In this document: positions 18,648-30,895 of the stretch, piece after piece
How positions within the stretch are numbered: the first letter of the stretch is position 1
Layout: each line of letters opens with the position of its first letter
Source: Micavibrio sp.
Lineage (GTDB): Bacteria; Pseudomonadota; Alphaproteobacteria; Micavibrionales; Micavibrionaceae
DNA: 34,118 nt
Direction of reading: 5' to 3'
Assembly: GCA_002695035.1 (NCBI GenBank)
Contig: NZNU01000063.1
Coordinates: 1-34,118, forward strand
The notes under the pieces: model-generated
The model's database searches: none
The model's input: only the letters and a program-made list of their open reading frames with translations
Told to the model about the DNA's origin: nothing
Position numbers and translations under genes: made by a program

Positions 18648-18683
18648 GCGCCGGGAATAAACCCCCGGCGCATTTTTTCTTTA
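18648..18683 (+). terminator. Rho-independent terminator after flgH
   Basis: An eight-base perfect stem, GCGCCGGG (18648-18655) with CCCGGCGC (18664-18671), and an eight-base loop are followed by ATTTTTTCTTT. It ends the flgA-flgH unit and separates it from the small-peptide island. Confidence 0.92.
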
Positions 18684-18799
18684 TTGCCGTTTACATAATG
18701 TATACAAATAGTCTTGAAATTAGCACAATCGGGAAATCATAAGATTGCACTAATAGGCTAAACTGAAATTATGGGTGGCAATTAACAAGAAAGATAAAA

Positions 18800-19006
18800 A
18801 TGATAAAACTCAGAAGAAAACAAAAGAAATATCTACAGGCAATCACATTTTCTTTTTTTCTCATGGCTTTTTTCGTAGGTAGTTTGAGTACGGCTTATAT
18901 GAGTTCCGGTCCCATCATTCTAGGCACTGAAATGAATGCAAATGGAACAGTGGAATATCTGTGTCTTGGGAATGGCTGCCACGACATGTTGGAAATGGAC
19001 TGGTAA
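18800..19006 (+). CDS. Small secreted Cys-containing peptide precursor (paralogue 1)
   Basis: The 68-residue product has a very basic N-terminus (KLRRKQKKY), one hydrophobic helix (about residues 14-30) and a likely signal-peptidase site around STA, leaving a mature peptide of roughly 35-40 residues. The mature part holds CLGNGC followed by HDMLEMDW. The helix and the SSG after it align without gaps with the second small gene at 19873, and both mature parts have two Cys separated by four residues with Asn at the third. It ends two bases before the converging response-regulator gene. The ribosome-binding site is weak. I do not recognise the family; function is unknown. Confidence 0.65.
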   Translation: MIKLRRKQKKYLQAITFSFFLMAFFVGSLSTAYMSSGPIILGTEMNANGTVEYLCLGNGCHDMLEMDW

Positions 19007-19008
19007 GG

Positions 19009-19701
19009 CTACCCTATAAATAAATAACCTATGCCCCGTATAGTTTTGATATATTCGGGGTTTTTGGGATCATCACCTAATTTTTTCCGAATACGTCCAA
19101 TTAAAATATCGATACTGCGGTCATAGCTGTCACTTTCGAGCTTATCCAGGTTTTGAAATATCTGATCACGTGACACTTTGCGCCCTTTTGCTGCTATAAG
19201 AATGGAGAGAATATCATACTCTGTTGCAGTCAGACCCGCGTCATGACCATCCACATGGATGACCTGATGTTGATTGTCATCAAGAAACCAAGGGCCGAAT
19301 TTTGTGTCTCTGGTCTCGTCTTCTGCCTGAATAACAGGCTGACAGCGCCTGAGTACAGCCTTGATGCGTGCAGCCAGTTCGCGGGGGAGAATTGGTTTTA
19401 GTAAGTAATCATCTGCGCCGGTTTCCAGACCGATAATTTTTTCAACATCTGTGCTGTTACCACTGAGCAGAATTATAGGCGCTTGGGATTGTTTACGAAT
19501 ATCCAGCACTAAATCAAGACCGTTCTTGCCGGGTAGCTCATAATCCAAAAGAAATAAATCAACTTTTTCGAGAATGCATTTCTCATCAATGTTCAGGCCA
19601 TCTGAGAAGGGTGTCACGTTATAACCTTCCGAGGATAAAAACTCTGTAAACATGGAGTTTATATTTTCATCGTCCTCAATAAAGACTATGTGTGCTCCCA
19701 T
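19009..19701 (-). CDS. OmpR/PhoB-family response regulator (orphan)
   Basis: From ATG 19701 the product is 230 residues: a receiver domain (about 1-120) and an OmpR-type winged helix (about 130-228). Phosphorylation residues are intact: acidic pair ED at 9-10, phosphoacceptor Asp53 (FLLDYELPG), Ser80 (LLSGN) and Lys102 (LLKP). The DNA-binding domain shows LTATEYDILSILIAAKGRKVSR and RSIDILIGRIRKKLGD. In-frame ATGs at 19788 and 19740 would add 29 or 16 residues of no receiver character, so 19701 is preferred, though its ribosome-binding site is poor. No histidine kinase gene is nearby. It lies between two related small secreted-peptide genes, one convergent and one divergent. Confidence 0.92.
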   Translation of the reverse strand: MGAHIVFIEDDENINSMFTEFLSSEGYNVTPFSDGLNIDEKCILEKVDLFLLDYELPGKNGLDLVLDIRKQSQAPIILLSGNSTDVEKIIGLETGADDYLLKPILPRELAARIKAVLRRCQPVIQAEDETRDTKFGPWFLDDNQHQVIHVDGHDAGLTATEYDILSILIAAKGRKVSRDQIFQNLDKLESDSYDRSIDILIGRIRKKLGDDPKNPEYIKTIRGIGYLFIG

Positions 19702-19872
19702 GGAAAACCTGTATTGTATAGCTTTAATTATCTGACTCATTAGAAGTTTATCATATACTTCGTTAACAAAATAGATACAAAATGCCATAAAATTACCGCT
19801 AAAACGAAAAACGGCTTTTACAAAGCTATGATAAATTTATGTAAATGAGATAATTTTATTATGGAGAGTTAA

Positions 19873-20070
19873 ATGTCAAAAACATTAAAATCAAAAGAAT
19901 TTCATGCCTTATGCTTTGCTTTTTTTCTGTTTTTAGCACTGGCTGCCTCCTTAAGTATGGCACTTGCGTCTTCCGGCCATGATTCTGATGATGGCTCGGG
20001 ACTGATTATCACAGAGAACGTGATCTGCCAGGATAATATATGTTTGCCAACCAGCATGTTTGGAGGATAG
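19873..20070 (+). CDS. Small secreted Cys-containing peptide precursor (paralogue 2)
   Basis: The 65-residue product has a signal peptide (basic start, helix at about residues 14-30, cleavage likely after SMALA) and a mature part of about 33 residues, Asp/Gly/Ser-rich and ending ICQDNICLPTSMFGG. The two Cys have the same spacing as in the 18800 gene (C-x-x-N-x-C). Over 21 aligned positions from FAFFL to SSG about half are identical with that gene, so they are paralogues. A good GGAGA precedes ATG 19873. It is divergent from the response regulator and followed by a terminator at 20135. Function unknown. Confidence 0.7.
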   Translation: MSKTLKSKEFHALCFAFFLFLALAASLSMALASSGHDSDDGSGLIITENVICQDNICLPTSMFGG

Positions 20071-20134: not shown

Positions 20135-20164
20135 AAAAAGCGCCGGTCAGCCCGGCGTTTTTTT
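20135..20164. terminator. Bidirectional terminator between peptide 2 and the HELHH protein gene
   Basis: The stem CGCCGG (20141-20146) / CCGGCG (20152-20157) with a five-base loop is flanked by AAAAAG and a run of seven T, so it can terminate from both sides. The stop codon of the minus-strand gene lies inside the T run. Confidence 0.88.
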
Positions 20165-21515
20165 ATGGTTGCTTTATGTCCGCATTGAGTTTGTTTATAG
20201 CGCGGGCCTTGGCATCATCGCCAAAGCAAAATCCAAAGATATTTCCCGCCGCCTCGGCGCCGTAGACTTTTACTTCGTTAGCGGCACCTTCAAAATCCTT
20301 TCGTGCCATAAGTGCTGTCGCTTTAAATGTGCCATCAACTAATGTGGAAACCGCACCCAGAATAGGTGTCCTTTTAGCTACAAAATCAAAGCCTTTGCTA
20401 AGTTTGCTTGCCAATGGTGCTCCTTTAATGTCCTCCCATTCGGCCTGGCGTAAATCATGACCTTCCAAATTGCTTAAATCTTTTCCTAAAATATCAACAT
20501 TATATTTATGTTGCCTAAGCTCACCCTGCAAAGCAGCTTTACGTGCAAGTTGTGCGTAAAGCTGAGTATTGCTGTCTACGGCAGGATTTGAGGCGATTTT
20601 TTCCAAACGGTCCGCTAGCGAACTAAGGTCAGGGTCGCGGTAATCTTTAATGCGTTCCCTGTCGTCTTCTGTGGCCAACAATTTATCGAGTACTGGGTCG
20701 ACGCATTTAAAACCATCATCAAAATATTTGCCGTGAATTTCTTTTTGCAGATATTCCGAGGGACAATGTGTGATTGCTTTATGCCCGATAAGTTCAGCAT
20801 AAAGCCTTACCCTTAATTCCATGACACGGGTAGAGGTTAGCGGATCAGGTGTTTCAGAATCATGACTGAAAAAATGCCTGTGCAAATTATGTGCAAAATC
20901 GTAGACGCCGACTTCACCAAATAAAGTAGTTAAAGCACGGTTTTGTACATGGGCTCTGACAACCTCAGTTGACCCGCCAGCGTCCAGATAATCCTGTAAT
21001 GCGCGTTTATCGCATTCAAATTCCTCCGCATTGATTTCGTCAGGCTGTTCGTTTTTTGCCCTTAATCTGGCGTGATGAAGTTCATGCCGCAATGTAATAT
21101 AATCGGAATCCTCCTTGGGAATAGGATTGTTTATTAGGTATCGCGTGTCGTTTAATTGGTATCGTAAGTTATCTGTAGGAGTACTGAGTTTCGATGCTTT
21201 TAAAAGCCCAAAAGCCAAATGTTTTTCCCTTGTCCCTAAAGTATTAAGAAGGCCACCAACATAATCAGCACTATCTTTAGCCACTTCAAACAGGGAAATA
21301 TGGTCTGAGGCAGGGCAGAATTCCAGCCAGCGGCGTTTTAAATTCGCCGCACGCTCTGATAATTCTGTATCAGAATAAAAATCGTAAAGTGTGTCTTTGA
21401 AAACGCCTAGATCTTCGGAGTAATAGGTCAAAACGGGTCGACCGATTTCGGCAGATAATTCCTCATCCGTATGAACGGGCGCAACAAAGCCGCTATCTAT
21501 TAAATTTCCACTCAT
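20163..21515 (-). CDS. Putative zincin-like protein with HELHH motif, unknown function
   Basis: The 450-residue product has no obvious signal peptide. Residues 144-148 read HELHH, a fit to the HExxH zinc-binding motif, followed 16 residues later by EFECD (Glu165, Asp169), matching an ExxxD pattern found in gluzincin-type metallopeptidases. Both lie in predicted helices. The rest is soluble and mostly helical. A late segment (about 380-440) is Ala/Gly-rich with possible amphipathic character (LGAVSTLVDGTFKATALM, then AAGNIFGFCFGDDAKARAI). I do not recognise the family and no flagellar link is evident. It lies between two terminators and appears to be transcribed alone. It could be a peptidase or a pseudoenzyme; only the motif supports this. 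Confidence 0.7.
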   Translation of the reverse strand: MSGNLIDSGFVAPVHTDEELSAEIGRPVLTYYSEDLGVFKDTLYDFYSDTELSERAANLKRRWLEFCPASDHISLFEVAKDSADYVGGLLNTLGTREKHLAFGLLKASKLSTPTDNLRYQLNDTRYLINNPIPKEDSDYITLRHELHHARLRAKNEQPDEINAEEFECDKRALQDYLDAGGSTEVVRAHVQNRALTTLFGEVGVYDFAHNLHRHFFSHDSETPDPLTSTRVMELRVRLYAELIGHKAITHCPSEYLQKEIHGKYFDDGFKCVDPVLDKLLATEDDRERIKDYRDPDLSSLADRLEKIASNPAVDSNTQLYAQLARKAALQGELRQHKYNVDILGKDLSNLEGHDLRQAEWEDIKGAPLASKLSKGFDFVAKRTPILGAVSTLVDGTFKATALMARKDFEGAANEVKVYGAEAAGNIFGFCFGDDAKARAINKLNADIKQP

Positions 21516-28987: not shown

Positions 28988-29002
28988 TTAAGGGTTTGTT
29001 AA
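28988..29002 (+). promoter_or_regulatory. CtrA box 1 upstream of fliF
   Basis: TTAAGGGTTTGTTAA fits the full CtrA consensus TTAA-N7-TTAA. It lies about 190 bases upstream of fliF and 22 bases from box 2 (start to start), about two helical turns. CtrA activates early flagellar operons such as fliF in Caulobacter. The 320-base gap 28875-29194 holds these boxes; I see no other promoter in it with confidence. Confidence 0.78.
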
Positions 29003-29009
29003 TATGTTA

Positions 29010-29024
29010 TTAAGAATTTGTTAA
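29010..29024 (+). promoter_or_regulatory. CtrA box 2 upstream of fliF
   Basis: TTAAGAATTTGTTAA is a second exact TTAA-N7-TTAA, on the same face of the helix as box 1. Together they make direct CtrA control of the fliF-fliG-fliH-fliN-motA-flbD operon likely. The region is AT-rich, so some chance matching cannot be excluded. Confidence 0.78.
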
Positions 29025-29194: not shown

Positions 29195-30895
29195 ATGGCT
29201 GATAGCACTACAAATGAGAATTCAATGGAGCCTGCCGATAACGGGATGATGGCCACCTTTCGAAGGTTAGGGCCCGCCCGACTTGGCGTAATGGGTGCGG
29301 TTGTCTTTATGTTGCTGCTCTTTTTCGTGTTTGTCAGCCTTCGCGTGGCCTCTCCTGATATGGAGATGCTTTATAATAACTTATCCTCCCAAGATACAAG
29401 TGCAATAGCAGTGAAGCTTGATGAGAATAACATTGCCTACACAATATCAGAGGATGGCACGCAAGTCTCTGTCGGTGAAGAAAATATGGCACAAGCCAGA
29501 TTGCTTCTTGCTCGTGAAGGCCTGCCTAGTACCGGGGCGTCAGGTTATGAGCTTTTCGATAACCAGTCCGGTTTCGGCACCACAAACTTTCAGGACATGA
29601 TGAATAAGCAGCGCGCACTGGAAGGTGAGCTTGCGAGAACAATTAGTGCGCTTGAGCCAGTCTCAACGGCTCGTGTTCATCTGGTGATTCCTGAGCGTGA
29701 ATTGTTTAGCCGTGAAACGCAGCCCCCGAGTGCCAGCGTGTTCGTTAATCTGAGAGGTAGCATTGAGCTTACCGCTAACCAGATACAAAGTATTCAGGCA
29801 CTTGTTGCCTCCGCCGTTCCAGGCCTTAAAGGTTCTACTGTTTCAGTTATGGACAGTGCAGGTAACCTTTTGGCTAAGGGCGGGACTGATGATGAAGGCC
29901 TCATGACGGTCAAGGCCGAGGAAATGCGTCGTAAGTATGAGCAACGCCTGACAAACTCAATCGAGAACCTTGTTGGTCGAACCGTCGGTTTTGGTAAAGT
30001 TCGTGCCATGGTGACTGCAGATCTTGATTTTGACCGCATCAGCCAGAACGAGGAAATTTTTGATCCCGAAAGCCAGGTTGTACGCTCATCCTCCCTTGTG
30101 GAAGAAAGTGGTTCTGAGCGCGAGCCAGCTAATGAAAATGTGGGTGTCGAAAACAACCTTCCTAATGTAGGTGGCGATTTGCTTCTTGATGACCAGCCGA
30201 CATCCCAACAAAACCGACTTGAAGAAACAACTAATTATGAGATCAGCAAAACCGTTAGAAATACTGTTCGTGAGGCAGGCGCGGTCAATCAGCTTTCGGT
30301 AGCGGTTATCGTTGACGGAACCTACACAACGACGGAAGCTGGTGAAAGGGTATATGAGCCGCGCAGTGAAGAACAACTTTCGAAGATTGAAAGCATCGTT
30401 CGCTCTGCAATTGGTTTTAGTGATTCTCGTGGAGACTCAATAACCGTTGAAAGTATGCAGTTTGCCGATATAGATGCGGGTCAGGACATGCTTGGCGATG
30501 ATCGGATTATGGGCTTTGAGCGTGAAGACCTTCTTGACGCAGCTGAAATTGTGGCTGTTGCTGTTATGATTATTTTGGTGGTGTTACTGGTTCTTCAGCC
30601 TATGGTGGGCCGCTTGTTGGAAGCATCATCACCTGCTAAAAAGGATGAGCCAACACCGCAACCTGACTTTTTGCCGGGGGCACAGCAAAATCCGGCATTG
30701 GCCGCACCTAGCGGGTCAGGCGATGCCGCAGGTTTTCAGCCTGATGAAGTTGACGAGGATGATGACAGCATGATTGACATGCAAAAGGTTCAGGGTCAGG
30801 TTAAGGCCTCCTCTATTAAAAAGGTTGAAGATATTGTTTCCAATTATCCAAATGAAACTGTCTCGGTCATTCGGAACTGGATGGGACAGGAATAG
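29195..30895 (+). CDS. fliF: Flagellar MS-ring protein FliF
   Basis: FliF forms the inner-membrane MS ring on which the motor is built. The 566-residue product has two membrane segments, at about residues 31-50 and 445-465, enclosing the periplasmic ring domains. Family segments are clear (LDENNIAYTISEDGTQVSVG, then FGTTNFQDMMNKQRALEGELARTI and ARVHLVIPERELFSRE). The cytoplasmic C-terminus ends with the FliG-binding motif (KKVEDIVSNYPNETVSVIRNWM). It is the first gene of the class II-type operon. The stop precedes fliG by eight bases. Confidence 0.98.
   Translation: MADSTTNENSMEPADNGMMATFRRLGPARLGVMGAVVFMLLLFFVFVSLRVASPDMEMLYNNLSSQDTSAIAVKLDENNIAYTISEDGTQVSVGEENMAQARLLLAREGLPSTGASGYELFDNQSGFGTTNFQDMMNKQRALEGELARTISALEPVSTARVHLVIPERELFSRETQPPSASVFVNLRGSIELTANQIQSIQALVASAVPGLKGSTVSVMDSAGNLLAKGGTDDEGLMTVKAEEMRRKYEQRLTNSIENLVGRTVGFGKVRAMVTADLDFDRISQNEEIFDPESQVVRSSSLVEESGSEREPANENVGVENNLPNVGGDLLLDDQPTSQQNRLEETTNYEISKTVRNTVREAGAVNQLSVAVIVDGTYTTTEAGERVYEPRSEEQLSKIESIVRSAIGFSDSRGDSITVESMQFADIDAGQDMLGDDRIMGFEREDLLDAAEIVAVAVMIILVVLLVLQPMVGRLLEASSPAKKDEPTPQPDFLPGAQQNPALAAPSGSGDAAGFQPDEVDEDDDSMIDMQKVQGQVKASSIKKVEDIVSNYPNETVSVIRNWMGQE

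Follow-up and report, generated by a model that had tools for sequence, protein, structure and literature searches.

A conserved family of two-cysteine membrane micropeptides in Micavibrionales and its possible link to two-component signalling

Genes between flgH and dksA

The window, a 34,118-nucleotide stretch of Micavibrio sp. DNA (contig NZNU01000063.1), carries an insertion of about 3 kb between flgH and dksA. The insertion consists of two small genes, here called P1 and P2, the gene of a response regulator (RR) and an ORF of 450 amino acids with an HExxH motif. In many relatives flgH is closely followed by dksA and fliX. The flgH and dksA matches in a genome of the same genus (G001) are 262 bp apart, and P1, RR and P2 are absent there.

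P1 (18800-19006, plus strand) encodes a peptide of 68 amino acids and P2 (19873-20070, plus strand) a peptide of 65 amino acids. Both reading frames were found exactly where the initial annotation had placed them, and the motif C-x-x-N-x-C that it had described is indeed present near the end of both peptides. An RBS-like sequence (GGAGAG) is located upstream of P2. The RR gene (19009-19701, minus strand, 230 amino acids) is convergent with P1, the two stops being 2-3 bp apart, and divergent from P2. Its start is most likely the ATG at 19701 and not the longest possible start at 19788. A terminator-like hairpin (18648-18671, plus strand) separates flgH from P1 and directly precedes the repeat element described below, and a second one (20141-20157, minus strand) lies between P2 and the HExxH ORF; here a T run follows on the plus strand too. 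The HExxH ORF itself (20163-21515, minus strand) gave a weak match to Lit (NCBIfam NF007238, E 0.0046), which at 16.2 bits is far below the cut-off of 274 and leaves the HExxH motif as the only shared feature. Of 134 other genomes in the order, 5 gave weak or partial matches to this ORF.

RR had been described as an OmpR-family regulator, and the Pfam search agreed. Both Response_reg (PF00072, 7e-21) and Trans_reg_C (PF00486, 1e-21) scored above their cut-offs, and this combination of a receiver domain and a winged helix places the protein in the OmpR/PhoB family. The phospho-acceptor Asp and the Ser and Lys positions are present (LLDYELP, LLSG and LLKP). RR also appears to be an orphan, as proposed: no histidine kinase gene was recognised adjoining it. 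A kinase-like gene precedes many of its relatives but not RR of the window. The closest relatives are 42-47% identical, so that a close orthologue is lacking (best 47%), and in a tree RR forms a very long branch that is not sister to the other P1-linked regulator (L117). Among the 29 nearest other relatives of RR, a single one is adjoined by a P1-type peptide. The expected co-occurrence of such peptide genes with orthologues of RR consequently failed, given also the empty flgH-dksA locus in the same genus. An orthologous P1-RR-P2 unit was rejected for the same absence and because RR did not accompany P1 in the other loci of a first comparison.

The P1 peptide family

Homologues of P1 were found in 13 of 58 genomes with a single-sequence search and in 26 of 142 Micavibrionales genomes with a profile search. 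Nothing convincing was obtained outside this order when 385 genomes of the class were searched. As far as searched, the family is restricted to Micavibrionales. The genome under study holds a second full member (contig C7, 349-516), which is not linked to any response regulator. Searches of Pfam, NCBIfam, PHROGs, PADLOC, PDB sequences and Foldseek yielded no credible match; the best Foldseek hit among PDB folds had a meaningless E of 2.4, and the PDB sequence search was negative. The initial annotation knew of no described family with this layout, and the P1 family is in fact absent from every library searched (Pfam, NCBIfam, PHROGs and PDB sequences). Weak partial matches to the hairpin of P1 occurred in frames of about 508-511 amino acids in two genomes, G109 and G104 (E 0.003-0.01), and were not accepted as larger hairpin-bearing proteins. 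These two frames of about 510 amino acids (L152, G109:C38, and L153, G104:C18) could nevertheless represent a larger protein that has this hairpin too.

An alignment of 30 family members revealed a conserved extracytoplasmic core and a variable transmembrane part. The C-terminal part follows the consensus LGTE-N-NG-VEYLCLG-GC, in which G, E, N, E, Y and the last C are common to all 30 sequences and L, C and G nearly so. A basic N-terminus is found in most members, a Trp near the C-terminus in 14 of 30, and a predicted single-transmembrane architecture together with the cysteine pair in all 30. Between near homologues of P1 dN/dS was 0.06-0.14. Such values point to purifying selection and are far from the value near 1 that would have spoken against P1 as a gene. 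Judged from these comparisons, P1 is under purifying selection and belongs to a strongly conserved peptide family that had not been described before.

Exactly two cysteines are present on the C-terminal side in 30 of 30 members, and 27 of them show the C-x4-C arrangement. In the remaining three (family f7) the first cysteine is gone and a cysteine is found before LGTE instead, on the other strand. An AF2 model of P1 (pLDDT 82.7) consists of a helix at residues 2-35 and two strands at 39-45 and 51-56, and in this model both cysteine arrangements could form a disulfide across the hairpin. Since three members moved one cysteine to the other strand, a disulfide is implied for the family, and we regard this compensation as the best evidence for it.

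The initial annotation considered both peptides to be secreted by means of signal peptides. The basic N-terminus and the following hydrophobic segment agree with this proposal, but the cleavage was found to be insecure. No signal-peptidase site (A-x-A) is shared among the 30 aligned members, and the AF2 model shows a single continuous helix from residue 2 to 35. For these two reasons a membrane anchor appears at least as likely as a cleaved signal peptide. Release or surface exposure of P1 and P2 after cleavage, as a signal or as a factor against competitors or prey whose production is controlled by RR, would suit the conserved short C-terminal part with its two cysteines and a lineage to which the epibiotic predator Micavibrio aeruginosavorus belongs (PMC3189940). 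Set against this, besides the missing cleavage site, is that no exporter or immunity gene was recognised nearby, and that a receiver gene coupled to a P1-type gene and followed by a kinase gene in another genome (see below) fits an accessory role better. We consider secretion quite improbable. The further suggestions of a diffusible peptide signal and of metal binding found no specific support.

P2 and the shared upstream element

P1 and P2 can be aligned without gaps over 30 residues, 13 of which are identical by eye (BLOSUM62 score 56). The similarity is thus better than the 21 positions originally claimed. As a null, 69 other N-terminal signal or transmembrane segments from the fetched loci were scored against P1 (mean 21.7, sd 4.7, best 35). 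Because none of these exceeded 35, the paralogy of P1 and P2 is better than chance, and on the strength of this alignment P2 is a diverged paralogue of P1.

A search for direct repeats uncovered a 35-bp element, overlooked by the initial annotation, whose two copies are 1073 bp apart, which is the distance between the start codons of P1 and P2. Each copy occupies positions -112 to -78 of its start codon, at 18688-18722 for P1 (plus strand, TTTACAT-AATG-TATACAA-ATAG-TCTTGAA) and at 19761-19795 for P2 (plus strand, TTAACAA-AATA-GATACAA-AATG-CCATAAA). The element consists of three 7-bp units repeated directly with a spacing of 11 bp. The copies agree at 26 of 35 positions, compared with 21 of 58 just upstream and 33 of 77 from the element to the start codon. 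Under a single-register Markov null this similarity had a P of about 5e-5, and among 340 real upstream regions none was as similar. The 26-bp core, searched with up to 3 mismatches, matched exactly twice in the 2.14-Mb genome; the control gave zero matches. Upstream of other P1 family members the element was not found; it is confined to the P1/P2 pair of this genome. The only upstream motifs common to the family were A/T-rich words, and CtrA-like site pairs occurred upstream of 4 of 30 P1 genes against a background of 3%, which is a weak signal.

Units of 7 bp every 11 bp are the layout known for sites of the PhoB/OmpR family. Since the element is unique in the genome, shared by P1 and P2 and spaced like an OmpR/PhoB-type repeat, binding by RR is likely, and both peptide genes are probably under its control. 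The P2 copy also precedes the RR start, by about 60-95 bp. RR would thereby probably bind its own promoter too, which overlaps the P2 element. The shared element could also be a leftover of the duplication of P1 and P2.

P2 might be a decaying, functionless duplicate, with P1 as the only peptide that matters. Its hairpin sequence is lost and no confident homologue was detected in 58 genomes. On the other hand, the frame is intact, and the RBS-like sequence, the cysteine pair and the promoter element have all been retained. Decay of P2 therefore appears rather unlikely to us.

Genomic neighbours and possible function

Besides the window, 17 independent P1 loci were distinguished by grouping them by hand according to synteny; the window was left out of the count. 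A receiver-domain gene was the immediate neighbour in 4 of these 17 loci, compared with about 0.033 expected per locus from about 36 REC domains per 2.05 Mb (P about 0.002, in a test that was suggested by the finding itself). The neighbouring receivers vary in kind and comprise OmpR-type, CheY-like and larger REC proteins. An OmpR-type regulator gene is divergent from the P1 homologue in G089, and the gene of a REC protein in G035 and G116, which count as one locus. In G087 a CheY-like gene is divergent from a P1-like ORF of unusual sequence and is followed by a CHASE-PAS hybrid kinase gene. In two species that again count as one locus (G049 and G127) the gene of a REC protein lies upstream of the P1-type gene, and the two overlap by stop and start in ATGA. 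In G127 the gene of a MHYT-HisKA-HATPase-REC-Hpt kinase starts 87 bp downstream of the peptide gene. Locus L098 (1974-6318) shows this succession: a REC protein gene, the gene of a 53-residue P1-type peptide (ATGA overlap) and that of a MHYT hybrid kinase, with an NtrC-type regulator gene diverging from them.

The initial annotation took the peptides and RR for a dedicated unit. The paralogous peptides, their shared upstream element and the excess of receiver neighbours elsewhere are in favour of this proposal, but the orthologous P1-RR-P2 layout is not conserved. P1 might instead have a job of its own in the envelope, for example in stabilising an inner-membrane complex, with P1 and P2 duplicated around an inserted RR and with incidental neighbours of a gene that relocates often. 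P1 loci differ between genera and usually contain the peptide gene singly among housekeeping genes. Each of the holin, TrmJ/GltX, MnmA and gyrA neighbourhoods is shared by a few genomes, and 13 of the 17 loci have no receiver neighbour; the absence of a conserved upstream motif across the family points in the same direction. The REC gene that shares ATGA with the peptide gene in two species, the receiver-neighbour excess and the preservation of the promoter element between otherwise diverged upstream regions argue against such an independent job. It seems unlikely, yet deserves to be taken seriously.

RI-type antiholins are small membrane proteins whose N-terminus is cytoplasmic and whose periplasmic end carries a disulfide. 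A holin gene does precede some P1 genes. P1 stands directly after a GTA_holin_3TM gene in four loci (L022, 5448-6250; L024, 1-522; L027, 6295-7083, minus strand; L030, 6019-6848, minus strand), with a Hydrolase_2-type gene and a terminase gene nearby in L022, L027 and L030. These observations would suit an antiholin-like accessory of phage- or GTA-type lysis that has spread from lysis cassettes. However, the four loci look like one conserved neighbourhood and most P1 loci lack a holin gene. Moreover, holin genes occur widely (91 of 135 genomes), whether P1 is present or not, and lie elsewhere in most genomes that have P1; their co-occurrence was discarded as uninformative. Searches of viral contigs, phages and PHROGs gave no relative of P1. 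A lysis function is therefore very improbable.

Close to an even chance is given to the interpretation which we prefer, namely that P1 and P2 are small inner-membrane proteins that serve two-component signalling, are controlled by the adjacent RR and act on a sensor kinase. Both would span the membrane once with the N-terminus inside and would expose a short extracytoplasmic C-terminus with a disulfide, which in P1 would lock a beta-hairpin. After binding of RR to the 11-bp repeats common to the two promoters, the peptides would act on the extracytoplasmic or transmembrane part of a kinase encoded elsewhere, in the way MgrB or SafA act on PhoQ. The outcome would be feedback or cross-talk. The computations established the genes, the family with its two-cysteine rule, the paralogy, the element unique in the genome, the adjacency to receiver genes and the ATGA overlap; the binding of RR, the disulfide, the topology, the kinase as target and the sign of the effect are inferred. 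Points that tell against the model are the 13 loci that lack a receiver neighbour, the mixed kinds of receiver elsewhere, the unlinked C7 copy and an element confined to the pair of this genome.

SafA and other small two-component connectors likewise act on a kinase by way of its periplasmic part, a comparison which draws partly on general knowledge. The P1 family differs from them in its restriction to one lineage and in its predicted disulfide hairpin, and the likeness drawn here is one of description. Kinase-tuning small membrane proteins such as MgrB and SafA are known from few bacteria. MgrB, a very small single-pass membrane protein with a basic N-terminus and a short periplasmic end containing two cysteines, resembles what is predicted for P1. 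These cysteines and a C-terminal Trp matter for the inhibition of PhoQ, and MgrB belongs to the regulon of the response regulator whose kinase it regulates (PMC8404706). The periplasmic region of SafA activates PhoQ (cited in PMC8404706). The sequences of MgrB and P1 do not match: P1 has the LGTE/VEYLCLG hairpin with C-x4-C, MgrB has C28 and C39, and none of the 30 P1 members matched the MgrB Pfam profile at E up to 1. The best reading is that P1 may be functionally like MgrB and SafA without being homologous.

With the P1 family, bacterial sensing may have a new type of helper. A more specific proposal is possible but distinctly tentative: the family would be a novel class of membrane micropeptides with a disulfide hairpin, acting in Micavibrionales two-component systems as exchangeable sensor or feedback subunits on the extracytoplasmic side. 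Its genes would sometimes be ATGA-coupled to those of receiver proteins and adjoin those of MHYT-type hybrid kinases, and in the window the peptide gene would have been duplicated around an RR that drives both copies. Whether other small membrane proteins evolved for other kinases was posed as an open question in PMC8404706. The conserved, hitherto undescribed P1 family belongs to an order with predatory bacteria among its members, and together with a mapped candidate element for RR and a naturally occurring REC-peptide-kinase cluster it would allow this question to be tested directly.

Elsewhere in the window, three TTAA-N7-TTAA (CtrA-like) sites were observed in a row at 28988-29024, upstream of a fliF-like gene at 29195.
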